Below, piece after piece: positions 44,670 through 56,123 of a stretch of DNA of 64,000 nt. This stretch comes from Desulfomonile tiedjei DSM 6799 (GTDB lineage: Bacteria > Desulfobacterota > Desulfomonilia > Desulfomonilales > Desulfomonilaceae): NCBI RefSeq assembly GCF_000266945.1, contig NC_018025.1, forward strand, positions 1 through 64,000, read 5' to 3'. Made by a program: the position numbers and the translations under genes. The notes under the pieces are model-generated. The model was not told the DNA's origin, ran no database searches, and saw only the letters and a list, made by a program, of their open reading frames with translations. Every line of letters begins with the position of its first letter. The stretch's first letter is position 1.

Positions 44670-45137
44670 ATGGCAGCCAATAATCAACTTGTAGTATTTA
44701 CTCTGGATGAGCAGAGTTTTGCGTTGAACCTCTCTAATGTAGAGCGAATAGTGCGAGCGGTCGAGGTCACGCCTTTGCCCGACGCTCCTGAAGTCATTTT
44801 GGGCGTAATAAACATCGAGGGCCGAGTCGTTCCCGTGGTGAACACTCGAAAGCGGCTCGGCATGGCCGAAAAGGAAATAGAACTCCAGGACCTCTTTATC
44901 ATAGTACGTGAGAACGGTCACAGTCTGGCATTGTTGGCCGATCAGGTGAAACCCGTAATGGAAGTCCCGGACGAGGAATTGGTCCGGCCTGACCGGGTGC
45001 TGCCCGGAATCGGCTATGTCCAGGGTGTTGCGAAAGTCGATGACGGGATGCTTGTGGTACTCAGGCTGGAGACCATTATGTCGCTCGCGGATCAAAAGCT
45101 CGTGCTTGCCGCTCTGGAGGGGGTCCCGAGTGACTAA
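44670..45137 (+). CDS. cheW: CheW adaptor protein (first copy)
   Basis: Adaptor that links receptor arrays to CheA, 155 residues, a single CheW fold. It shows VVFTLDEQSFALNLSNVERIVRAVEVTPLP (near 8-37), GVINIEGRVVPVVN (near 47) and LALLADQVKPV (near 88). ATG 44670 is chosen because AGGGAG stands seven bases before it; an upstream frame exists. The stop overlaps the cheR start by eight bases. First gene of the plus-strand block. Confidence 0.92.
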   Translation: MAANNQLVVFTLDEQSFALNLSNVERIVRAVEVTPLPDAPEVILGVINIEGRVVPVVNTRKRLGMAEKEIELQDLFIIVRENGHSLALLADQVKPVMEVPDEELVRPDRVLPGIGYVQGVAKVDDGMLVVLRLETIMSLADQKLVLAALEGVPSD

Positions 45138-46680
45138 TGCTTTTTCCGAAATCTCGGGATCGACTTTACAAATATTGAGTCAGTCCATCGGGCAGAACCT
45201 GGGATTACATTTTCCCGAGGGAAAATGGCCGGATCTGAGACGAGCATTGGAAAAGGCTGCTCCGTCCTTGGGATTCGATTCCATTCAGTCCTGCGCGAAT
45301 TGGTTTATAGGTACGAACGATCCTTCCAGGATCGAGCGTCTCATTCAATTCCTCACCGTAGGTGAAACACATTTCTTTCGGGACACCAAGCTTTTCCAGG
45401 CTCTTGAGGAGAAATTTCTGCCGGAAATAGTGAACCTGCGCAGGCTTGACAGTCGAAGTCTGAAGATCTGGAGTGCCGGATGCGCAACCGGTGAAGAGCC
45501 GTACTCTCTGGCGATTGTACTGTCCCGAATGCTTCCGGATTTGTTCGGCTGGAACGTCACCATCCTCGCCACGGATATAAACCGGGAATTCCTGAGCAAA
45601 GCAGAGAAAGGCGTATACAGCGATTGGTCTTTTCGATCGGTTCCTCAGGATATTAGAAGAGATTTCTTCGAATCCAAAGGCGATCATTCGGTCCTGAATC
45701 CGGATATCAAGAAAATGGTTACGTTCACCGAGCATAATCTGGCCAAAGATCCTTATCCGTCCACGCTCCCATATGTGGGGTCTATGGACCTGATTTTCTG
45801 TCGTAACGTGATCATGTATTTTTCGATGGAACGTCAAGAACAGATAATCAGTAAACTCGCAGATTGTCTTGTAGACGGCGGCTTGTTGGTGGTGAGCCCT
45901 GCGGAAGCATCCAGCGTAACACGTTCGGATCTTATACCGGTAAATTATCCTGGCATCGTGCTGTTCAGGAAGAGCACCTCAGAATCAAGGGCCAAGCCAC
46001 TGAATCCGCTGTTGTTTTCTTCCTTAGTGGAGACCCCCGAACCGGTGCAGAATTCTGATGACAACCCTTTTGTATGGAATTTTGTGCCGCCTACTTTAAC
46101 TATCCCTGACTTTGTACAGCCAGAGGCTTTTGTACCGTATCCGGAAGAAACCCCTGAAGCCGCGGAACAAGAATTAAGCCCCTATGTGGAAGGGCTGAAC
46201 TTGTACGATCAGGGGAGGTATGCGGAAGCAATCGAGGTTCTTCTTGGATACGTGTCTTTCAACGGTAATCAACATTCAGGAACCGCATTATCTCTTCTCA
46301 GCCGGGCGTACGCTAATCTTGGCAAACTGGATGAGGCGCTGGATTGGGCTCAGAAATCTGTAAATGCCGATAAACTGAATGCCGAGTATCATTATCTCGA
46401 AGCAACGATTCTGCAGGAAATGGGCAGGAACCAAGAAACGGCAACGTGTCTTCAGAAGGCGGTATTTCTCAACCCCGATCTTGCAGCAGCCCATTTTGCC
46501 CTGGCAAATGTGAGCCTGAGGATGAATAATCGCAAACTTTCAGATCGTCATTTCCGAATAGCCCTCAGCGTTCTGGGGAATTACGATCACGAGGACGCTG
46601 TTCCTTCGACCGAAGGAATGAGTGCAGGCAAACTGATTGAAATTATCACGTCCATGCTTCGTAAGGAGAAATCCGCATGA
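45130..46680 (+). CDS. cheR: CheR-type methyltransferase with TPR tail
   Basis: Methylates receptor glutamates with SAM. Product of 516 residues: N-terminal helical domain, then VGETHFFRDTKLFQAL (near 78), IWSAGCATGEEPYSLA (near 113), DLIFCRNVIMYF (near 222). After a Pro-rich linker (about 290-350) are about three TPR units (LNLYDQGRYAEAIEVL, AYANLGKLDEALDWA). GTG start at 45130 overlaps cheW and follows GGAGG. The TPR fusion is typical of alternative chemosensory systems such as Frz or Che7. Confidence 0.92.
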   Translation: MTNAFSEISGSTLQILSQSIGQNLGLHFPEGKWPDLRRALEKAAPSLGFDSIQSCANWFIGTNDPSRIERLIQFLTVGETHFFRDTKLFQALEEKFLPEIVNLRRLDSRSLKIWSAGCATGEEPYSLAIVLSRMLPDLFGWNVTILATDINREFLSKAEKGVYSDWSFRSVPQDIRRDFFESKGDHSVLNPDIKKMVTFTEHNLAKDPYPSTLPYVGSMDLIFCRNVIMYFSMERQEQIISKLADCLVDGGLLVVSPAEASSVTRSDLIPVNYPGIVLFRKSTSESRAKPLNPLLFSSLVETPEPVQNSDDNPFVWNFVPPTLTIPDFVQPEAFVPYPEETPEAAEQELSPYVEGLNLYDQGRYAEAIEVLLGYVSFNGNQHSGTALSLLSRAYANLGKLDEALDWAQKSVNADKLNAEYHYLEATILQEMGRNQETATCLQKAVFLNPDLAAAHFALANVSLRMNNRKLSDRHFRIALSVLGNYDHEDAVPSTEGMSAGKLIEIITSMLRKEKSA

Positions 46681-47330
46681 CGACTCCGGAAAACCTTCAA
46701 TCTTCTGCAGCCGAGACTGCCGATGGACAATCGTCCGCAAGCTACGGACCTGCAGGGCAAAGTGCAGACTCTTCCTTGCAGGCAATGCAGAGTCGCACCC
46801 TGACTCCTGCGGAGAAGAAAAGGATATTGAAAGAGCGGGCGAGAAAGCTCGCACAGCGCGCCGAAACCCAGGAAAAGGAAGAGGAGAGTCTTCAGATAAT
46901 AGAATTCATGTTGGCGCATGAACGGTATGGGGTAGATGTGGAATACGTAAAAGAGGTGTATCCACTCAAGGACTTGACCGCAATTCCGTGCACGCCTTCA
47001 TTTGTGCTCGGTATTATAAACGTGCGGGGACAAGTCTTTTCGGTTGTGGACATCAGGGATTTTTTCGATTTGCCCAAGCACGAGATAACGGCATCCTTCA
47101 GAATTATTATCGTGAAAAATGAGAATATGGAATTCGGCATTCTGGCGGATTCGGTGATCGGTGAACAGAAGATTCCTCTCAACAAAATTCAAGTGGACAT
47201 GCCGAGCCTCAAGGGAATCCGCTCTCATTATGTAAAAGGAGTGACTTCCGAACGGCTGATCATTATGGACGTGGAAAAGCTTCTGTCCGATGAGAGTATC
47301 ATTGTACATGAAGAGGTCGGCAGTTCGTAA
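46677..47330 (+). CDS. cheW: CheW adaptor protein (second copy, N-extended)
   Basis: Second CheW domain, 217 residues. A polar, Ser/Gln-rich lead with a highly charged helix (about 38-65) precedes the CheW fold: IIEFMLAHERYGVDVEYVKEVYPLKDLTAIP (near 71-101), GIINVRGQVFSVVDIRDFF (near 108), FGILADSVIG (near 150). Overlaps cheR by four bases (ATGA), so translation is coupled. Two CheW proteins suggest a mixed array or two receptor types. Confidence 0.92.
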   Translation: MTTPENLQSSAAETADGQSSASYGPAGQSADSSLQAMQSRTLTPAEKKRILKERARKLAQRAETQEKEEESLQIIEFMLAHERYGVDVEYVKEVYPLKDLTAIPCTPSFVLGIINVRGQVFSVVDIRDFFDLPKHEITASFRIIIVKNENMEFGILADSVIGEQKIPLNKIQVDMPSLKGIRSHYVKGVTSERLIIMDVEKLLSDESIIVHEEVGSS

Positions 47331-47418
47331 GTCGATTGAGAGCCTCGTCGCAGAGCGTCCAGGCACGAGTTGAGATCGTCAAAAAGCAACAAAGTGATTC
47401 AAGTTTCTGGAGTGTGTT

Positions 47419-49806
47419 ATGGCGAACAAAGACGATGAATTCCTCCAAAAACTGCTTGCAGCTTTCAGAATAGAGGCTGAAGAGCATCTCCGGGCTATAG
47501 CCAATGGGCTGCTGGAAGCTGAAAAAGACCCGACCGGCAGCGAGAAAATTATAGAATCTATGTATCGGGAGGCTCACAGCCTGAAAGGCGCTGCTCGTTC
47601 CGTGAATCTGACTCGGATCGAAGCTGTCTGCCAGGGGGTAGAAAGTGTTTTCGCAGCGCTGAAGGCTTCCCGGATACCGACATCTACAGAACTCTTCGAT
47701 TCCCTGCACAGGGCTACCAATATAATGACGGAATTGCTGGAAGAATCTGACGTTGAGATTCAGCCGGTTATCGATGAACTTAGTGCTCTCGAACGACATA
47801 GTGGTTCCAATGTAACGCAACGAACTGCAAAATCACCGCAGAAAAAAGAAGAGACAGTGCCGGAGCAAATCGTGGAAGACCAGAATGTCGAGACTTCGCT
47901 CGAACCCGTTCGTGAAGATTTGCAGAACGCGCATGAAAGTAGTGATCCCCCAATGCAAGATGAACAACCGGAGATTTCAGATTTCACAGGCCCGGGAAAG
48001 AAGAGGGAACGGCATCTTTCCACAGAGACCGTGAGAATAGCAGTCAGTAAGCTCGATCCTCTCCTGAGACAAGTAGGAGAGATGGTATCGGTTAAACTCA
48101 CGGCCAGCCAACGAGTGTCGGACCTGTTGTCCGTTGTAGCCGCCATCGATCAATGGAAACAAAAGTGGTCGAATGTTTCGTCTCAGGAGAAGGCGATCGG
48201 TTCGATTTTGACGCAGAAACGCAAGGGCAACGGATCTGCGCGAAGAGAAGCCGATATCGCGAAGATTACCGACTTTCTCGAATGGAACCAGAGCTGTATG
48301 AAAAGTCTGGAGAGCAAAATTCGTGAGCTGGTGAAATCTGCTGAAGGCGATGCTCGACTGCACGGCTCGATGGTGGATGACCTTCTGGACGACATGATGA
48401 ACGTTCTCATGCTTCCGTGCTCGTCACTCCTGGAGATCTTCCCCAAGCTGGTCCGCGATTTGTCCCGGGATGCGGGTAAAGAGGTGAGGCTGGAAATTCT
48501 CGGTGCGGATCTGGAAATCGACCGTCGCATCCTGGAGGAGATGAAAGACCCTTTAATCCACCTGGTACGGAACTGCATCGATCATGGAATCGAACTGCCC
48601 AATGAACGTGTCCAGAACGGTAAACCAAGGTATGGAACCATTACGATAGCCATTTCTCAGATATCCGGAAATCAGATCGAGCTGTTGATATCCGATGACG
48701 GAGCCGGAATCGACGAATCAAAGGTCCGCGAAGCAGCTCGACGACGAGGGATGATTTCCGAACAGGAGAAACAGCGGCTGGAAAGCCAGGACGCGGTGGC
48801 CCTGGTCTTTCGATCTGAAGTATCCACGAGTCCTGTAGTCAGCAATATTTCGGGCCGCGGTCTGGGGCTGGCTATTGTTCGGGAAAAAGTCGAAAATCTT
48901 GGCGGAAATGTTTCCGTAGCCACTGCACGTCAAAGGGGAGTTTCCTTCCGAATCCTGCTGCCTGTGACCTTGGCAACATTTCGAGGGATTCTTGTCAGGG
49001 CGAACGACCAGTTGTTCGTTATCCCTACTGCGAACGTGGAGCGGGTCATACGCGTTAATCGGGAAACCGTCAGAACAGTCGGAAACCGCGACACGATTGA
49101 AGTGAACGGAAAGACCATGCCTTTTGTGGGCCTGGGCGATGCCCTGGAACTGCCGCGGACTGTAAAAAAAGGCGATGATGGCGAGTTGGCGCTGGCGCTT
49201 GTGCTTCGGTCCGGAGAAACCCTGGTCGGGTTTAGGGTGGACGCGATTCTCCATGAGCAAGAGGTCTTGGTCAAGGGATTGGGAAAACAACTAAGCAGAG
49301 TGAAGAATGTCGCAGGAGCCACGGTGCTGGGCGACGGCAGTCTCGCTCCGATACTCAATGTGCAGGATCTGGTCAAGTCCGCAACGCGACATGCCGCCTC
49401 GCGACTGGGACCGACGGTGAAGATGGAAGAACTGGAGTCCGGAAACAGGTCCATTCTTGTGGTGGAAGATTCGATCACATCGAGAATGCTCCTTAAGAAT
49501 ATCCTCGAGTCATCCGGATATCAGGTGACTACAACCATAGATGGAATGGAGGCGTGGAATCTCCTGAAGCAGGAGACTTTCGATCTGGTCGTTTCAGACG
49601 TGGAAATGCCGCGCATGGATGGTTTCGAGCTTACCACAACCATCAGGCAAGATGAAAAACTATCGAGCTTACCGGTTGTTCTCGTGACCTCCCTCGGTTC
49701 CCGGGAGGACAGGGAACGCGGTATCGATGTGGGCGCCAGTGCCTACATCGTAAAAGGTAGTTTCGATCAGAATAATCTTCTTGAAACAGTCGAAAGATTG
49801 ATCTGA
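47419..49806 (+). CDS. cheA: CheA histidine kinase with C-terminal receiver
   Basis: Hybrid kinase of 795 residues. Hpt domain first with the phosphorylatable His53 in EAHSLKGAAR; acidic linker (about 125-190) instead of a P2 domain; dimerisation segment (about 195-310); HATPase domain (NCIDHGIE near 387, DDGAGIDES near 424, GRGLGLAIV near 478); CheW-like P5 (near 510-640); receiver domain (VVEDSITSRMLL near 682, phosphoacceptor in VVSDVEMPRMDGFE near 725). No separate CheY gene is present, so its own receiver or the REC-PAS protein next door may act as phosphate sink or output. GGAG before ATG. Confidence 0.94.
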   Translation: MANKDDEFLQKLLAAFRIEAEEHLRAIANGLLEAEKDPTGSEKIIESMYREAHSLKGAARSVNLTRIEAVCQGVESVFAALKASRIPTSTELFDSLHRATNIMTELLEESDVEIQPVIDELSALERHSGSNVTQRTAKSPQKKEETVPEQIVEDQNVETSLEPVREDLQNAHESSDPPMQDEQPEISDFTGPGKKRERHLSTETVRIAVSKLDPLLRQVGEMVSVKLTASQRVSDLLSVVAAIDQWKQKWSNVSSQEKAIGSILTQKRKGNGSARREADIAKITDFLEWNQSCMKSLESKIRELVKSAEGDARLHGSMVDDLLDDMMNVLMLPCSSLLEIFPKLVRDLSRDAGKEVRLEILGADLEIDRRILEEMKDPLIHLVRNCIDHGIELPNERVQNGKPRYGTITIAISQISGNQIELLISDDGAGIDESKVREAARRRGMISEQEKQRLESQDAVALVFRSEVSTSPVVSNISGRGLGLAIVREKVENLGGNVSVATARQRGVSFRILLPVTLATFRGILVRANDQLFVIPTANVERVIRVNRETVRTVGNRDTIEVNGKTMPFVGLGDALELPRTVKKGDDGELALALVLRSGETLVGFRVDAILHEQEVLVKGLGKQLSRVKNVAGATVLGDGSLAPILNVQDLVKSATRHAASRLGPTVKMEELESGNRSILVVEDSITSRMLLKNILESSGYQVTTTIDGMEAWNLLKQETFDLVVSDVEMPRMDGFELTTTIRQDEKLSSLPVVLVTSLGSREDRERGIDVGASAYIVKGSFDQNNLLETVERLI

Positions 49807-49823
49807 ATCTCGGGTTGCCTACT

Positions 49824-50897
49824 ATGATCAAAGTCTTGGTGGTTGAAGACTCACCGGTGGCGTTGGAACTGCTGAAGCATATTCTTTCGTCCGATCCCGA
49901 GATAACCGTAGTCGGCACAGCGACGAACGGTCTCGAAGCCGTTGAATTCGTGCAGCGCGAGCGGCCCGACGTGGTTACGATGGACATCATCATGCCCAAA
50001 ATGGACGGTTTTGAAGCCACTCGTCAGATCATGGGAACTTGTCCCGTTCCCATAGTCATAGTCAGTGCAAGCCTGGTGCGTGAAGAAGTGGAGAAAACCT
50101 GGCGCGCAGTAGAAGCGGGTGCTGTGGCAGTCCTCGAAAAACCCCGGTACGTCGGTTTGGGGCGAACCACGGAAGAAGGGGAGCGACTCGTCCAAACAGT
50201 AAAGCTCATGTCCCAGGTCAAAGTGGTCAGGAGATGGAACAAGGCTTCTTCTGCTGTGCCGGCACCCAAGACGAGCCTGCCGTCCCCTCGTCCGATTGCG
50301 AAACCCGATCGACAAATCGTCCCTGTTTCCGAACAAAAAATTAAACTGGTGGCGATAGGAGCTTCTACCGGCGGTCCACCCGTGCTGCAACAGATCTTCT
50401 CCAGTTTACCGCTGTCCTTTCCAGCTCCCATACTCCTGGTTCAGCACATATCCCCGGGATTCACCCACGGATTTGTAGATTGGCTTAACCGAACTGCCAC
50501 GCTGCAGGCTCGCCTTGCGGATGACGGCGAGCGAATTATCCCGGGCAACATATATGTGGCACCTGACGGTCACCAGATGAAGGTCGATGCCGGAGGTCGG
50601 ATTATCCTCACCACGGAAGAAGCTGAAAACGGTATCCGCCCTTCAATTTCGTATCTATTCCGCTCTGTGGCGCATGCTTTCGGTGCTAAATCCATGGGTA
50701 TCCTGCTCACAGGAATGGGGAGAGACGGGGCGGACGAGTTGAAGACCATGCGCGACAAAGGAGCGCTTACAATCGCTCAAGACAAGGAAAGTAGTATTGT
50801 TTACGGTATGCCGATGGAAGCGGTGAGACTGGGGGCAGCCCAGTATTCGCTCCCACCGGACAAGATTATTGACATGTTGATGAAGATCTCCTCGTAG
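49824..50897 (+). CDS. cheB: CheB receptor methylesterase
   Basis: Removes methyl groups from (or deamidates) receptors; activated by phosphorylation from CheA. Product of 357 residues: receiver domain with VVEDSPVALELLKHIL and phosphoacceptor Asp in TMDIIMPKMDGFE (near 53), linker (about 135-165), then methylesterase domain with Ser in IGASTGGPP (near 178), His in LVQHISPGFTHGF (near 207) and Asp in TGMGRDGADEL (near 300). ATG 49824 preferred to TTG 49815. 17 bp after cheA. Confidence 0.94.
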   Translation: MIKVLVVEDSPVALELLKHILSSDPEITVVGTATNGLEAVEFVQRERPDVVTMDIIMPKMDGFEATRQIMGTCPVPIVIVSASLVREEVEKTWRAVEAGAVAVLEKPRYVGLGRTTEEGERLVQTVKLMSQVKVVRRWNKASSAVPAPKTSLPSPRPIAKPDRQIVPVSEQKIKLVAIGASTGGPPVLQQIFSSLPLSFPAPILLVQHISPGFTHGFVDWLNRTATLQARLADDGERIIPGNIYVAPDGHQMKVDAGGRIILTTEEAENGIRPSISYLFRSVAHAFGAKSMGILLTGMGRDGADELKTMRDKGALTIAQDKESSIVYGMPMEAVRLGAAQYSLPPDKIIDMLMKISS

Positions 50898-50917
50898 GGA
50901 TTTCATCAGGAGGACCT

Positions 50918-51892
50918 ATGGATGCACAATACGCTGCAACTCCGGGAACTCAAATATTGGTGGTCGAAGACAGTCCCACTCAAGCCATGCTGTTAGAACA
51001 TCTCTTGGAGAAAAACGGCTATGAAGTTGTAGTGGCCTCTTCGGGAAAACAGGCCCTGGAAGTGCTGGAGTCCTTCAGGCCTGCCCTCATCATCAGCGAC
51101 ATCGTGATGCCCGAAATGGACGGCTTCGAGATGTCCAAAGCAGTCAAAGGCGACCCGAGGCTTCGAGATATTCCCGTAATTCTTTTGACCGCGCTTTCCG
51201 ATCCGGAGGATGTGATCAGAGGCATGGAAGCGCGTGTGGATTTCTATCTCACCAAACCGTACGATGAGGATTTCCTTCTGTCCAAGGTAGCCTCTATCAT
51301 ATCTCGGCCAGTGGAAAGGACAAAAGCGAACGGCTGTCAATCCATGAAGATCAACCTGTGGGGAAAGATTTATGAAGTCTCGGTAATCCCGGAACTTTCC
51401 CTCAGCTTGTTGGCATCTACGTATGAAAATACGATCCAGATCAACCGTGAGTTGCATCGTGAAATAGCCGAACGCAAGCGGATTGAAGAAGAACTGCGAG
51501 TCACGGTGAAGAGACTCAAGGAAATGGAATCTATCATTGAGATCAGTCCCGCTGTTGCTTTTGTGCGCAAGGCTGAAGACGGATGGCCTATCGAATTCGT
51601 TTCGGATAATGTGCTTCAATTCGATTACGAATCTGAAGACTTGCTGAGCGGAAACATAAAGTATTTCGATATCATTCACCCCGAGGACAGGGACAGCGTG
51701 ATTGAGGAAGTGGAAAGAAGCCTCAAGGATAAGGACCTTGAGGAGTTCAGTCGTGAATACAGGATTCTTACAGGTTATGGCGAAACACGGTGGGTGGACG
51801 ATCGAACATTTGTGAGAAGAAATTCCAAAGGCATTGTTACTCATTATCAGGGAATCATCTTGGATGTCACGCATCGCAGAGATGAAATTTGA
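50918..51892 (+). CDS. Response regulator with REC and PAS domains
   Basis: Product of 324 residues. Receiver domain (residues 9-125) with VVEDSPTQAMLL and the phosphoacceptor Asp in ISDIVMPEMDGFE, followed by LTKPYDED. A coiled stretch (about 165-190, REIAERKRIEEEL) connects to a PAS domain (about 195-320) with FVSDNVLQFDYESEDLLSG and PAC-like ending. No kinase or DNA-binding output. AGGAGG before ATG. It may be an alternative CheY or an array partner with a ligand-sensing PAS. Confidence 0.88.
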   Translation: MDAQYAATPGTQILVVEDSPTQAMLLEHLLEKNGYEVVVASSGKQALEVLESFRPALIISDIVMPEMDGFEMSKAVKGDPRLRDIPVILLTALSDPEDVIRGMEARVDFYLTKPYDEDFLLSKVASIISRPVERTKANGCQSMKINLWGKIYEVSVIPELSLSLLASTYENTIQINRELHREIAERKRIEEELRVTVKRLKEMESIIEISPAVAFVRKAEDGWPIEFVSDNVLQFDYESEDLLSGNIKYFDIIHPEDRDSVIEEVERSLKDKDLEEFSREYRILTGYGETRWVDDRTFVRRNSKGIVTHYQGIILDVTHRRDEI

Positions 51893-52092
51893 CAGGGGTT
51901 GGCAATCAAAGAAATAACAAGAAGGTGTTTTCTCATTTCTTGACAACGCATCGGGAGCACAGATTCCGACCCCGACACAGTGTCTCTCAGATTGGACACT
52001 ACATCTGCATATGCGCGTTTTATGGATGTTTCGTCCGATTCATGTGATGTCTCATATGCCTTATAGTGTTTGCCAAAAGTTTTGTCCGATTC

Positions 52093-52179
52093 AAATCCCC
52101 CCAGCCCCCCTTTACGAAAGGGGGGGTAAGATGCAATAGCGTAATTCCCCCCTTGTTAAAAGGGGGGCTGGGGGGATTT
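52093..52179. repeat. 87-bp element with 21-bp perfect inverted ends
   Basis: AAATCCCCCCAGCCCCCCTTT (52093-52113) and its exact complement at 52159-52179 enclose a second, shorter G-run/C-run pair (AAAGGGGGGG 52118-52127 with CCCCCC 52147-52152). Very strong RNA or cruciform hairpin. Fills the 358-bp gap inside the chemosensory block. Similar elements are common in other genomes. Confidence 0.75.
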
Positions 52180-52250
52180 TTCGACTAACATCTGCATTGA
52201 GTTTCGGTCATTTCTTCTGGCAATGACTATAACGGTAGGAAGGACCGTAT

Positions 52251-52973
52251 ATGGTAAAGACTACCTGTTCCATACTCATAGTTGATGCGGATCACAGCGA
52301 GGCCAAATCTTTGGCCGGAATACTGAAAGAGAACGGGCATTCCGTCCTGGTGGCCAGAGATGCAGGTCACGCTGTTTCTATCCTGGAATTTAGAGGGTTT
52401 GACGTCTTGATAGTCGATTTGGCTGCTTCTCACGCACAAGACCTGGATCTGATCAGTTGGGCGTGCTGCATCTGCCCCAAACCCAGGATAGTAGCTACCG
52501 GTTACCCGTCCTTAAAAGACGAACAATCGGTGTCCGATCGCGGAGCAGACTTGTTCCTGCGCAAACCTGTCGATACAAATAAACTGACCCGATTTCTCGT
52601 GCAGTCCCGCAGCAGAAGCTCGTTTTCAGGCAAAGTGAACGATGTGGATATCATCGAATACGTGCAATTTGTGCTTCTGTGTGGTGGCAAGACAATCCTG
52701 GAGGTTACTTCCACAATGGGGACCACGAGCAGATTATTTATCTCGGAAGGCCATGTGGTTCATGCCGAATGCGGTGTTCTCCAGGGAGAACAGGCTCTCT
52801 ATCGGTGCCTTGGTTGGCGGGAAGGATCTTTCAGCCATGCACCATGGAGCGAACCCGAACGTGTCACTATCAGGAAACCCGGAGAATTCATTCTCGTAGA
52901 GGCTGTTCGTAAAAGGGATGATGCCTGGACCGGTAATAACGTTGGCGCTCCTGTTGATGACGAGCAGGACTGA
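52251..52973 (+). CDS. REC-PATAN (DUF4388) protein
   Basis: Product of 240 residues. N-terminal receiver domain (5-118): LIVDADHSEAKSLAG, probable phosphoacceptor in LIVDLAASH (near 53), FLRKPVDTNKL (near 103). The receiver is somewhat reduced (no MP after the Asp). C-terminal PATAN (DUF4388) domain (about 125-225) with VNDVDIIEYVQFVLLCGG, HVVHAECGVLQGEQALYRCL and GSFSHAPW. Closely similar to the C-terminus of the 53790-56123 protein. GGAAGGA before ATG. PATAN domains couple to type IV pilus motors in cyanobacteria. Confidence 0.88.
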   Translation: MVKTTCSILIVDADHSEAKSLAGILKENGHSVLVARDAGHAVSILEFRGFDVLIVDLAASHAQDLDLISWACCICPKPRIVATGYPSLKDEQSVSDRGADLFLRKPVDTNKLTRFLVQSRSRSSFSGKVNDVDIIEYVQFVLLCGGKTILEVTSTMGTTSRLFISEGHVVHAECGVLQGEQALYRCLGWREGSFSHAPWSEPERVTIRKPGEFILVEAVRKRDDAWTGNNVGAPVDDEQD

Positions 52974-53138
52974 ACTTTCAAATGCCGAGGTTTAAACCCG
53001 CTAAGCCTTGAATCCTCTGCGCGAATGACAACAGAAGTAGTTTTTTGATACAAAATTGGAGAAAAAACCGGTAAACTTGGTGCACCAACTGTACCAGTGG
53101 AATGAAAAAGCGGTGGAAGTGAGCAGGGATAAGTCTCT

Positions 53139-53747
53139 ATGGCCATTATCCGCGCCAAATCCAATGAGATTCAATGCAAAATCGTGTACTACGGTCCCGG
53201 AAGAGGCGGAAAAACAACTAATCTGATTATGATTCACAAGGCAATTGGAGCCAAGATTCGCGGCGAGTTGATTTCGATCAATACCGCGGGAGACCGTACG
53301 ATATTTTTCGATTTTCTGCCCATGGATTTGGGGATGATTCGGAATTTGAACATAAAGATTTCGGTGTATACCGTTCCCGGTCAAGTGCGCTATAACGATA
53401 CGCGCAAGCTCGTGCTCAGAGGAGTTGACGGAGTCGTCTTTGTGGCTGATTCCATGGAAATCCGTCGTGCGCAGAATATCGAGAGCTTTCAAAACTTTCG
53501 AGAAAATCTCGATTTGCTGAATGTGAAATCTTCGTCGATCTCAGTCGTGCTTCAGTACAACAAACGCGACCTGGAGTCGCAAAACGGAACGCGGATAATG
53601 CCCATCGAACAAATGGAAGAGGATCTGAACCCTAATGGCGAATGGCCCTGGATAGGAGCCAGCGCGGTGTCCGGTCAGGGAGTCAAGGAAACGTTTAAGC
53701 GCATTTGCATGCTTACGGTTGCAAACGTTGGTAAACAACTGATATGA
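53139..53747 (+). CDS. MglA-like small Ras-type GTPase
   Basis: Product of 202 residues. Walker A in YYGPGRGGKTTNLIMIH (near 18-34), switch region with NTAGDRTIFFDFLPMDLG (near 48-65), no usual DxxG but YTVPGQVRYNDTRKLVLRG (near 75-93), then NKRDLE (near 145), the base-recognition motif. This is the pattern of MglA, which sets front-rear polarity of gliding or pilus-driven cells with MglB. No MglB (roadblock) gene adjoins it. It is placed between two PATAN-domain genes. Confidence 0.9.
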   Translation: MAIIRAKSNEIQCKIVYYGPGRGGKTTNLIMIHKAIGAKIRGELISINTAGDRTIFFDFLPMDLGMIRNLNIKISVYTVPGQVRYNDTRKLVLRGVDGVVFVADSMEIRRAQNIESFQNFRENLDLLNVKSSSISVVLQYNKRDLESQNGTRIMPIEQMEEDLNPNGEWPWIGASAVSGQGVKETFKRICMLTVANVGKQLI

Positions 53748-53789
53748 CGTTCGTAGCTGACACCTTGGAGCGAAAGCAGGAGAGCTTAC

Positions 53790-56123
53790 ATGGCTGAAAG
53801 TCGCGTTCATGAACTGCTCTCGGGACTCACGGTAGTATTGCGCTCCAATGGAGATGCGAGAAAAACAGACAAAAAACGCGTCGATAAGAGAAAGCTGCTG
53901 AAATCTCGCGGTCCGGCGCCGCAGGTGATCATCTATACGCGCCATCCTGACGGAGATTTCGGCCCCACATTCATCAGCGACAATATCATCTCCCAACTTG
54001 GATATGCACCTCAGGAACTCATAGAGAATCCTTCCGCCTGGGAAGCTGCTCTCCATCCCGACGACAAGGAGCGGGTGTTATCTTCAAGAGGCGAACTTTT
54101 CGGTCTCGGTCACCTGGTCCAGGAGTACCGGCTCAGACATAAAAATAAAGAATTTCGCTGGATAAGAGATGAACTGAACCTGGTCAGGGACTCCTCGGGG
54201 AAACCTTCCGAAATTCTAGGTTCCTGGATTGACATCACCGAACGGAGGCAGGTCGAACAGGCCCTGAGGGAGAGTGAAGCGAGATATCGATCGCTCGTGG
54301 ATAGATCTCCCATGGGAATGATTTCTTTCGATACCAACGGAGAAATCACCGAATTCAATCCTGCAGTCCTGAGCATACTCGGAGCATCTCATCTCGATAT
54401 TGAAGACGCGATGGACTTGTTTTCGCTTCTCCCTCTGGTGGAGGCGGGTATATCCGAAGCCATAGTCCATTGTCTCGAATCGGGCGAATCCGGCGTAGGT
54501 GAGTTCCAGTACAAAGCCAAATCGGACAGGCAGGTCCATACCCAGGTCCATGTTGTTCCTATTCGTGATGGAGATAATCACATTTCGGGGGCGCATGGGT
54601 TCCTGCTGGACATATCCGACCAGAAGCGGGCTGAAGAGCTCATCATTGGTTCCGAGCGGCTTAAAGTGTTGGGTCAGATTTCTACAGGAGTGGGCCACAC
54701 GTTCAGCAACCTGCTGCAGGTTGTTTCCGGTAACGTGAACATGGCGCTGACAAACCTGGATCTGAAAGACTCCGAAGCGGTGAAAGGTAATCTCGAGCAA
54801 ATCATGGAGGGTGTTCGGTCTGCAACCGAAGCAGTGAGATGGATGCAGCAATTCGCCCGACGGAAATCGGACAGTTCGCAGAAACACGAGATCTTCGACC
54901 TTTCGGAAGCGGTGGAAGAAGCCGTAGAAATGTGTAAGCTCTGGTCCAAGACATTGCTGGACCGTAGGAAAATCCACATCAAACATGAAGTTGAACTGGC
55001 TCCGGGATGCCACATACTGGGGGTCCAGGACCAGGTAGCATGGGTCGCTCTCAACCTTCTCAAGAATGCCGTTGAAGCGATGCCCAGAGGGGGTACGATC
55101 AGGACCAAGACGTACGTGAAGGACCGACTCGCGGTTCTGAGCGTTCAGGACAGCGGAATCGGGATTCCTCCGGAAAATATGAAACACATTACAACCGCTT
55201 TCTGGACCTCGAAAGAGGCTCATGCCGGCATGGGTTTGCCTTTCAGTTGTGGAATACTGAGATCGCACAATGGGACCATGGGCGTAAAACGGGTCAGACC
55301 CAGAGGCAGCCTGTTTCTCATTCGGTTCCCGTACGTGAATCCCCTGCTGAAAAAGACCGAAAGCAGGGATCCCCTGAACAAAGGACTCAGAATACTCTTC
55401 ATCGATGATGACGAGAGAATCGTTAGAGTCTTTGAGCGGGGCTTGAGAGTGCTCGGTCATTCACTGGTTCCGGCTTATTCAGGCCAGCAGGGACTGAAGT
55501 TGTTTGCTCAAACGCCAATTGATGCTGTCGTTTGCGACCTGGCCATGTCTGAGATAAGCGGTTGGGAAGTGGCCAAGAGTGTGGCCAAATACTGCAAAGA
55601 AAACGAGAGACAAAAACCTCCTTTCATTATGCTCACCGGATGGGCGCGCCAGCTTGATGAAGATGAGGTGCAAATGCACCCGGAAGTCGATCGAATACTT
55701 CAGAAACCGGTTAAAGTCCCGCATCTGGTGGAAATGGTCCAGGAAGAAATAGGGCGAATTCAGTCACAAGAAGATTTCTCCGGTCGTATCGGAGGAATCG
55801 ACATACTCGAGTACATGCAGCTTCTTCTTCTCAACGGCCGGGAGATGCTTGTGTCTATCCAGTCCAGAGAAGGGGAGAAAGGGCTTATCTTTGTCCATAA
55901 AGGCGAGATAGTCCATGCCGTGACCGGTGCCATGGAAGGGGAAGAGGCACTCTACCACTGCCTGTTATTCAAAGGTGGAAGCTTTTCCAGCTTGCCGTGG
56001 CGTGACCCGGATCACAAAAGTATCACCAAACCCGGTGTATTCCTTCTTATAGAGGCTGCTCGCAAGAGAGACGAACGCAAGGACAGCCTCAGTCAAGACA
56101 TCCCGCTGTTGCAATCCGAGTAA
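53790..56123 (+). CDS. PAS-PAS hybrid histidine kinase with REC and PATAN
   Basis: Product of 777 residues. First PAS (about 45-150, FISDNIISQLGYAPQEL), second PAS (about 165-285), kinase (H-box in STGVGHTFSNLLQ near 300; N-box NLLKNAVEAMP near 420; G-box VQDSGIGIPPE near 450), receiver (FIDDDERIVRVFERG near 535, VVCDLAMSEISGWE near 580) and PATAN/DUF4388 (about 670-765, IGGIDILEYMQLLLLNG). No membrane segments, so cytoplasmic. It is last in the block; its own receiver plus PATAN may deliver the signal to the same target as the REC-PATAN protein. Confidence 0.9.
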   Translation: MAESRVHELLSGLTVVLRSNGDARKTDKKRVDKRKLLKSRGPAPQVIIYTRHPDGDFGPTFISDNIISQLGYAPQELIENPSAWEAALHPDDKERVLSSRGELFGLGHLVQEYRLRHKNKEFRWIRDELNLVRDSSGKPSEILGSWIDITERRQVEQALRESEARYRSLVDRSPMGMISFDTNGEITEFNPAVLSILGASHLDIEDAMDLFSLLPLVEAGISEAIVHCLESGESGVGEFQYKAKSDRQVHTQVHVVPIRDGDNHISGAHGFLLDISDQKRAEELIIGSERLKVLGQISTGVGHTFSNLLQVVSGNVNMALTNLDLKDSEAVKGNLEQIMEGVRSATEAVRWMQQFARRKSDSSQKHEIFDLSEAVEEAVEMCKLWSKTLLDRRKIHIKHEVELAPGCHILGVQDQVAWVALNLLKNAVEAMPRGGTIRTKTYVKDRLAVLSVQDSGIGIPPENMKHITTAFWTSKEAHAGMGLPFSCGILRSHNGTMGVKRVRPRGSLFLIRFPYVNPLLKKTESRDPLNKGLRILFIDDDERIVRVFERGLRVLGHSLVPAYSGQQGLKLFAQTPIDAVVCDLAMSEISGWEVAKSVAKYCKENERQKPPFIMLTGWARQLDEDEVQMHPEVDRILQKPVKVPHLVEMVQEEIGRIQSQEDFSGRIGGIDILEYMQLLLLNGREMLVSIQSREGEKGLIFVHKGEIVHAVTGAMEGEEALYHCLLFKGGSFSSLPWRDPDHKSITKPGVFLLIEAARKRDERKDSLSQDIPLLQSE

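Follow-up and report, generated by a model that had tools for sequence, protein, structure and literature searches.

Chemosensory clusters of the Wsp type (wspABCDEFR in Pseudomonas, with a WspH variant in Burkholderia) are known to have swapped outputs, WspR versus WspH (PMC8552884), and in Myxococcus the Frz array reaches the GTPase MglA via regulators whose genes do not lie beside mglA, as described in PMC4316618. The latter source (Wuichet and Sogaard-Andersen 2014) also reports that mglA genes of Groups 1 and 5 occasionally have PATAN genes in their vicinity, and refers to Makarova 2006 for proximity of MglB and PATAN. Here we analyzed the first 64,000 nucleotides of contig NC_018025.1 of Desulfomonile tiedjei DSM 6799 (designated the window), where nine genes, all encoded on the plus strand between positions 44670 and 56123, combine a chemosensory core with a REC-PATAN protein, an MglA-family GTPase and a hybrid kinase likewise carrying a PATAN domain. 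The cluster is real and conserved within one branch, and it represents a known chemosensory type with a rare output module. Based on sequence comparisons, we assign a probability of about one half to the reading that a PATAN-MglA polarity module was added to an alternative cellular function (ACF; Frz/Wsp-like) cluster in one branch of the Desulfomonilaceae and that the cluster controls MglA-dependent pilus polarity.

Judged by the domain make-up of its CheA, the core belongs to the ACF type of chemosensory clusters, and its gene order is Wsp-like. It starts with a CheW at the position of WspB (44670–45137; Pfam CheW, 106 bits), whose orthologues are 55–69% identical in the relatives G011, G014 and G016, and continues with a CheR methyltransferase with TPR repeats at the position of WspC (45127–46680; Pfam CheR, 174 bits, and TPR) and a second CheW at the position of WspD (46677–47330; 107 bits). 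A gap of 88 bp (47331–47418) separates cheW2 from the gene for the CheA-REC hybrid kinase (47419–49806). ACF-class CheA proteins are described to possess Hpt, ATPase and CheW domains and a C-terminal receiver (PMC3441718), and Pfam detected all of these features in the 47419–49806 product, which has the Hpt motif AHSLKG and intact receiver motifs; its H-kinase_dim match scored 21.0 bits and is below the Pfam cut-off of 23. The core is completed by a CheB methylesterase of REC-CheB type (49824–50897; NCBIfam NF009206, 359.7 bits at a cut-off of 342) and a REC-PAS protein (50918–51892), whose position is occupied by REC or REC-histidine kinase genes in relatives. Downstream follow the genes for REC-PATAN (52251–52973; Pfam REC and DUF4388), the small GTPase (53139–53747) and a PAS-PAS-HATPase-REC-DUF4388 hybrid kinase (53790–56123), in which an H-box (GVGHTFSN) and an N-box are recognizable. 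DUF4388, which we take to be the PATAN domain, was matched in the two proteins with 44.5 and 49.1 bits (Pfam cut-off 25). An earlier note, prepared from the DNA letters of the window, had proposed nine same-strand genes with these domains, which is borne out by the open reading frames and by Pfam: all nine frames are real and open. As also claimed there, methyl-accepting chemotaxis proteins (MCPs), MglB and a stand-alone CheY were not detected by Pfam inside the cluster; the seven MCPs and three roadblock/MglB matches revealed by a whole-genome search all lie elsewhere. There was no Wsp- or Frz-named model among the NCBIfam matches listed. Wsp references from plasmid records, reaching up to 42.5% identity over 75% of CheA, were too poorly annotated and were not used.

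To compare the locus with its relatives, CheA was searched in 198 genomes of the phylum, yielding matches in 105 at E <= 1e-60. In the window's family 17 of 18 genomes were matched, the best match being of the window type (>560 bits) in 14 and weak in three. A set of 28 related clusters was composed of the 27 strongest matches outside the window's genome and G064; G009 is its sole member from the window's family, and 27 are from outside the family. Neighboring genes in relatives were labeled by hidden Markov models built from domains of the window and its genome, so divergent MglB or PATAN genes may go undetected. Genes for REC-PATAN, MglA and the kinase-REC-PATAN protein are located 3' of the che genes in four family genomes representing three genera: the window's own genome (G000 in comparisons; 6.53 Mb, two contigs) and G011, G014 and G016, whose proteins are 58–80%, 46–76% and 41–70% identical to those of the window, respectively. 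This nine-gene order is present in 4/12 judgeable family genomes with a window-type CheA (G002 and G007 are cut 3' of cheA and were not judged). The module is absent from seven other family genomes in which 4.2 kb or more is available 3' of cheA, and from G015 with 2.7 kb. The search for the same gene order, as suggested by the earlier note, was thus successful inside the family, and it was unsuccessful outside, where none of the 27 clusters has it; within the fetched stretches MglA, MglB and PATAN are missing from all 28 related clusters, 3' sequence being short in L135 (2 nt), L144 (1.4 kb) and L143 (3.0 kb). Relatives keeping cheA-cheB without mglA/PATAN, which the note had named as speaking against its proposal, do exist (27 clusters outside the family and eight inside, a few with little 3' sequence). 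Therefore, the MglA/PATAN link is a branch-specific addition and not intrinsic to the chemosensory system.

Nevertheless, the join of che genes with MglA and PATAN, recurring as it does in four genomes of three genera, does not look like chance. Across the phylum, 20 of the first 150 PATAN matches listed are located at most 5 kb from one of the first 150 MglA matches listed, the chance expectation being ~0.6 if genomes of 3.2 Mb are assumed. Moreover, in the family genome G010 (L196, 10746–16319) a che cluster of another type, arranged as CheA, an unknown gene and CheB, is directly followed by PATAN-MglB-MglA. The CheA fragment of G010 is 69% identical to the CheA of a second che cluster in the window's genome and 29% identical to the window CheA; unlike in G010, che genes of this second type and PATAN-MglB-MglA units are far apart in the window's genome. 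This second cluster (L096, 7373–19243; 5.56–5.57 Mb) has a PATAN protein of its own, a REC-PATAN-REC-CheB fusion, an MCP and a very long CheA. A search of titles and abstracts retrieved no description of a joint che-PATAN-MglA cluster; to the earlier note, too, this exact gene set was not known as a described pathway. Linkage of MglA and PATAN is already in print; new are the joint cluster and the second case in G010.

The GTPase matches Ras/Arf-type families in Pfam and MglA chains in the PDB (3t12, E 1.5e-50; 6hjh, E 1.7e-48). The signature of Group 1 MglA proteins is given in PMC4316618 as an Arg next to the G2 Thr, TVPGQ in G3 and [NT]KxD in G4. GKTT, DRT, TVPGQ and NKRD are kept in all four cluster MglAs and, judged by these motifs, the protein belongs to MglA Group 1 and retains its catalytic motifs. 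In a tree of 62 MglA rows, the four che-linked proteins group together with a Shimodaira-Hasegawa-like approximate likelihood ratio test (SH-aLRT) value of 90. They are placed beside a family-wide set, mostly of the PATAN-MglB-MglA arrangement (9 of 11 rows), and all 15 are joined at 98. The window's genome encodes four MglAs, of which the cluster protein alone is without an adjoining MglB. MglA/MglB pairs are described as having MglB encoded at most four genes away from MglA, and orphan MglAs are also reported (PMC4316618); no MglB was found within this distance of the cluster MglA, and none of the roadblock matches is near 53 kb. The interval 52973–53139 yielded no roadblock match that could represent an MglB relic, a degraded relic not being searched for otherwise. 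An MglB-MglA pair of another type is located directly 3' of the cluster in G016, where the MglB frame opens immediately after the kinase stop codon, and ~0.6 kb upstream of cheW1 in G014; the window's genome has a pair of this kind at 3.30 Mb. Probably, the cluster MglA lost its own MglB rather than never having had one. Beyond the family, three Nitrospirota loci (L056, L058, L063; ~10.0–14.1 kb) carry mglA and a CheA cluster in tail-to-tail orientation, a single unknown gene separating mglA from cheA, and in L058 PATAN is also nearby. In L065, L067, L071 and L072 (WOR-3-type and other records) an MglB-MglA pair is found beside an opposite-strand MCP gene.

The earlier note called the cluster receptor-less; as a feature of the system, this did not survive comparison with relatives. 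An MCP is encoded at most 3 kb 5' of cheA and on the same strand in 25 of the 28 related clusters; the other three comprise L119 and L131, which are cut by contig ends, and L135, a CheA fragment beside an opposite-strand CheB. Inside the family, 5' sequence is available in 12 of 14 genomes (G003 and G015 are cut 5' of cheA and were not counted), eight of which have an MCP (G002, G005, G007, G008, G009, G010, G011, G014) and four of which do not (G000, G004, G013, G016). In two of the four nine-gene genomes an MCP gene is located between cheW2 and cheA, i.e. at the site of the 88-bp gap: G011, which belongs to the same genus as the window's genome and has the same nine genes, and likewise G014. 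In a tree of 42 MCPs, all of them taken from fetched loci, six of the seven MCPs of the window's genome fall into a 34-row family clade together with cluster receptors (support 100/99). These six share a signalling match of 175 residues each and have CHASE3 or Cache-type sensor regions, some scoring under the Pfam cut-off; the seventh, with a signalling match over 142 residues, belongs to the second che cluster. As six of seven MCPs group with cluster receptors, the receptors are probably scattered over the chromosome and not missing, which most simply accounts for a CheA that has no MCP gene beside it; the absence of an MCP beside the window's cheA is a local loss. We rejected the idea that the system works without receptors, because G011 and G014 have an MCP at this position and the window's genome contains homologous MCPs at scattered sites. 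Caution is thus advisable, since receptors may exist even where a cheA cluster contains no MCP gene. Two tandem MCP genes at 1.09–1.10 Mb of the window's genome (L198, 6700–11848), both with CHASE3 and 92% identical over the tree columns, probably reflect a recent duplication.

A phosphorylatable receiver contains an acidic pair, a phospho-accepting Asp, a Thr/Ser and a Lys. Alignment of the receivers from the window, G011, G014 and G016 showed that those of CheB and REC-PAS are intact in all four genomes and that of CheA-REC in three, G014 being aligned only past its contig break. The REC-PATAN receiver is degenerate: phospho-Asp and Lys are kept, the second acidic residue is replaced (A, L, S, A) in 4/4 genomes and the Thr position is variable. 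REC-PATAN proteins of other PATAN modules (L103, L105, L107) have normal receivers. The receiver of the hybrid kinase is intact in the window and in G011, while the second acid is changed to Asn in G014 and the phospho-Asp to Gly in G016. The H-box motif of this kinase was found in all genomes except G014 and the N-box motif in all except G016. Given these degenerate receivers, a relay into both PATAN proteins, with which the earlier note had let the phospho-relay end, is unlikely as a conserved mechanism, and REC-PAS appears to be a better candidate for a CheY-like output than the PATAN proteins. In G013, a PAS-kinase-REC protein without PATAN (L187, 2949–5339), 49% identical to the window hybrid kinase, is encoded beside a che cluster of the same type and possibly represents a precursor state. 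The PATAN domain alone was modeled as a small alpha/beta domain (predicted local distance difference test score 89.5; predicted template modeling score, pTM, 0.82), and the model of the entire REC-PATAN reached a pTM of 0.57. A roadblock/MglB-like fold of PATAN was considered, but neither Foldseek nor VIA produced a clear match for the model among PDB chains. When REC-PATAN was compared with solved structures by sequence, the matches listed fell almost wholly in the receiver.

The arrangement of the intergenic regions is relevant for the question whether the two halves of the cluster act together. In the window, genes 6 and 7 are separated by 358 bp and genes 7 and 8 by 165 bp. The former gap contains a long hairpin (52093–52179; fold −70.1 kcal/mol, z −8.6) with perfect 20-base arms (CCCCCCAGCCCCCC type), running at its 3' end into five T, three of which are pairable in the stem. 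In relatives the gap between genes 6 and 7 is ~150 bp (G011), ~100 bp (G014) and 70–200 bp depending on the start codon (G016), and lacks such a hairpin. A terminator or an inserted element between the two halves is possible. A dispersed repeat was considered and dismissed, as no further copy was present in 278 kb of the window's genome or in other fetched loci; two fetched loci with the hairpin arms represent the same place in overlapping coverage. A gap of 165–400 bp precedes mglA in all four nine-gene genomes, making an own promoter possible in each of them.

As to the output, FliG was found in none of the four genomes with the nine-gene cluster (the control was positive in 4/14 named genomes). 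The bacterium seems to be without flagella; the earlier note had seen no flagellar gene in the cluster, and a FliG match was missing from the whole genome. Among the papers listed for Desulfomonile motility, none contained the genus name. Genes were labeled PilB-like when encoding T2SSE plus MshEN, PilT-like when encoding T2SSE alone and PilC-like when encoding T2SSF. In the window's genome genes of all three kinds are found together at ~3.67 Mb, and three more T2SSE ATPases of PilT size as well as a second one with MshEN are encoded elsewhere. The presence of PilB-, PilT- and PilC-like genes and the failure to find FliG fit a pilus-type output, which is plausible, as is the motor target proposed in the earlier note.

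In the mechanism we propose, about six scattered membrane MCPs with Cache or CHASE3 sensors would signal via two CheWs to CheA-REC, with CheR-TPR and CheB setting receptor methylation. Phospho-CheA would mainly serve the intact receivers, i.e. its own REC, CheB and REC-PAS, the latter occupying the place of CheY or of FrzZ, which consists of two receivers (REC-REC). REC-PATAN would probably be a phosphorylation-independent scaffold, acting together with MglA and with the PAS-kinase-REC-PATAN protein, which has its own PAS input. MglA and the PATAN proteins would determine where or whether type IV pili work, and a roadblock GTPase-activating protein could be provided in trans by one of the three MglBs encoded elsewhere. 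A bolder version, doubtful at present, holds that MglB is replaced as the local partner of MglA by the PATAN proteins, of which one has a phosphorylation-dead receiver; this would put a Ras-like polarity switch under direct control of the chemosensory cluster. If true, it would make PATAN a novel kind of regulator or effector of MglA that joins chemosensory arrays to pilus polarity.

Several observations weigh against the proposed PATAN-MglA control of pilus polarity. The PATAN model revealed no link to any known GTPase regulator in the PDB (best Foldseek E 0.12, none at E <= 0.001; best VIA Z 4.2, none at Z >= 5), and the SH-aLRT value of 90 for the four che-linked MglAs is below the tool's mark of 95. 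Both the G011 cluster (L184, L203) and the G014 cluster (L185, L202) are broken within cheA and lie on two contigs. Since the H-box motif was not found in G014 and the N-box motif not in G016, the activity of the hybrid kinase may not be conserved. The scattered receptors are suggested by the tree and the signalling-region match, and the place in this tree of the L199 MCP, one of the six, is unsure owing to its long branch. A connection between MCP loss and gain of MglA was also considered and discarded: across the 10 family genomes judgeable for both, the two are not associated (MglA present, two with vs. two without MCP; MglA absent, four with vs. two without). Finally, the hairpin may separate genes 1–6 from genes 7–9 in the window's genome. 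This would suit a rather unlikely alternative, in which an ACF operon (genes 1–6) and a PATAN-MglA-kinase unit (genes 7–9) with an own promoter merely abut and have no functional link. The gap before mglA common to all four genomes, the degenerate REC-PATAN receiver and the absence of genes 7–9 from the fetched stretches of the 27 clusters outside the family point in the same direction. However, four genomes of three genera share the order, even at the 41–70% identity of G016, the gaps between genes 6 and 7 are shorter in G011 and G014, and a second che cluster is joined to PATAN-MglB-MglA in G010.

Connection and output of the two halves could also differ from what we favor. An output other than motility, e.g. 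surface attachment, exopolysaccharide or secretion with MglA localizing a secretion ATPase, is unlikely. Such an output would be in line with the gene order shared with Wsp (PMC8552884), the lack of a FliG match, the two PilB/GspE-type ATPases with MshEN and the regulation of predation by MglA in Bdellovibrio (PMC4316618), but the cluster has no GGDEF gene and Myxococcus MglA, as described, acts on pili and polarity. It is distinctly unlikely that the two PATAN receivers are both phosphorylated by CheA and subsequently act on a motor jointly with MglA. While cyanobacterial PATAN regulators bind PilB according to PMC10519157 and PMC9090330, and the hybrid kinases of the window and of G011 have intact receivers, this idea conflicts with the second acid lost from REC-PATAN in all four genomes and with the Gly and Asn substitutions in the kinase receivers of G016 and G014. 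In addition, the hybrid kinase has its own H-box (3/4 by motif) and therefore need not depend on CheA. That the locus is a decaying remnant with its receptor and a receiver lost and its halves split is highly improbable: an MCP is not in place and REC-PATAN is degenerate, but all nine frames are open, catalytic motifs are kept and identity to the same-genus relative G011 amounts to 58–80%. REC-PATAN degeneracy is common to four genomes, and thus not a recent accident.

Among described systems, Wsp resembles the window cluster in gene order, CheW-CheR-CheW-CheA-CheB corresponding to wspB-C-D-E-F (PMC8552884). It differs by its WspA-type MCP, which is not in place in the window and present in G011 and G014, and by its output, as REC-PAS and PATAN-MglA are found instead of WspR (REC-GGDEF) or WspH. 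The Frz system of Myxococcus xanthus with MglA/MglB/RomR likewise has an ACF-class CheA with a receiver, and it exerts chemosensory control over MglA polarity (PMC3441718), as we propose for the window cluster. Unlike Frz, the window cluster has single-receiver proteins only, with no FrzZ-like gene, and no MglB, and mglA is inside the che cluster, whereas Myxococcus mglA is reported to lie apart from the genes that encode its response-regulator partners (PMC4316618). In the window, one cluster unites the array, the candidate regulators and the GTPase, and among relatives this array occurs both with the module and without it, which makes the route from a chemosensory kinase to MglA testable with a handful of proteins. 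The MglA-near-PATAN genes in PMC4316618 share a Group 1 mglA beside PATAN, but a joined chemosensory cluster is not mentioned in what that source reports on them. PixE and PixG of Synechocystis have PATAN with a receiver, PixG is part of a chemotaxis-like system and their PATAN binds PilB (PMC10519157, PMC9090330); in contrast to the window cluster, no MglA is named for them in these accounts, and the receiver of the window REC-PATAN is degenerate. The window cluster also suggests a role of PATAN beyond the contacts with PilB and PixD described in cyanobacteria (PMC10519157, PMC9090330).

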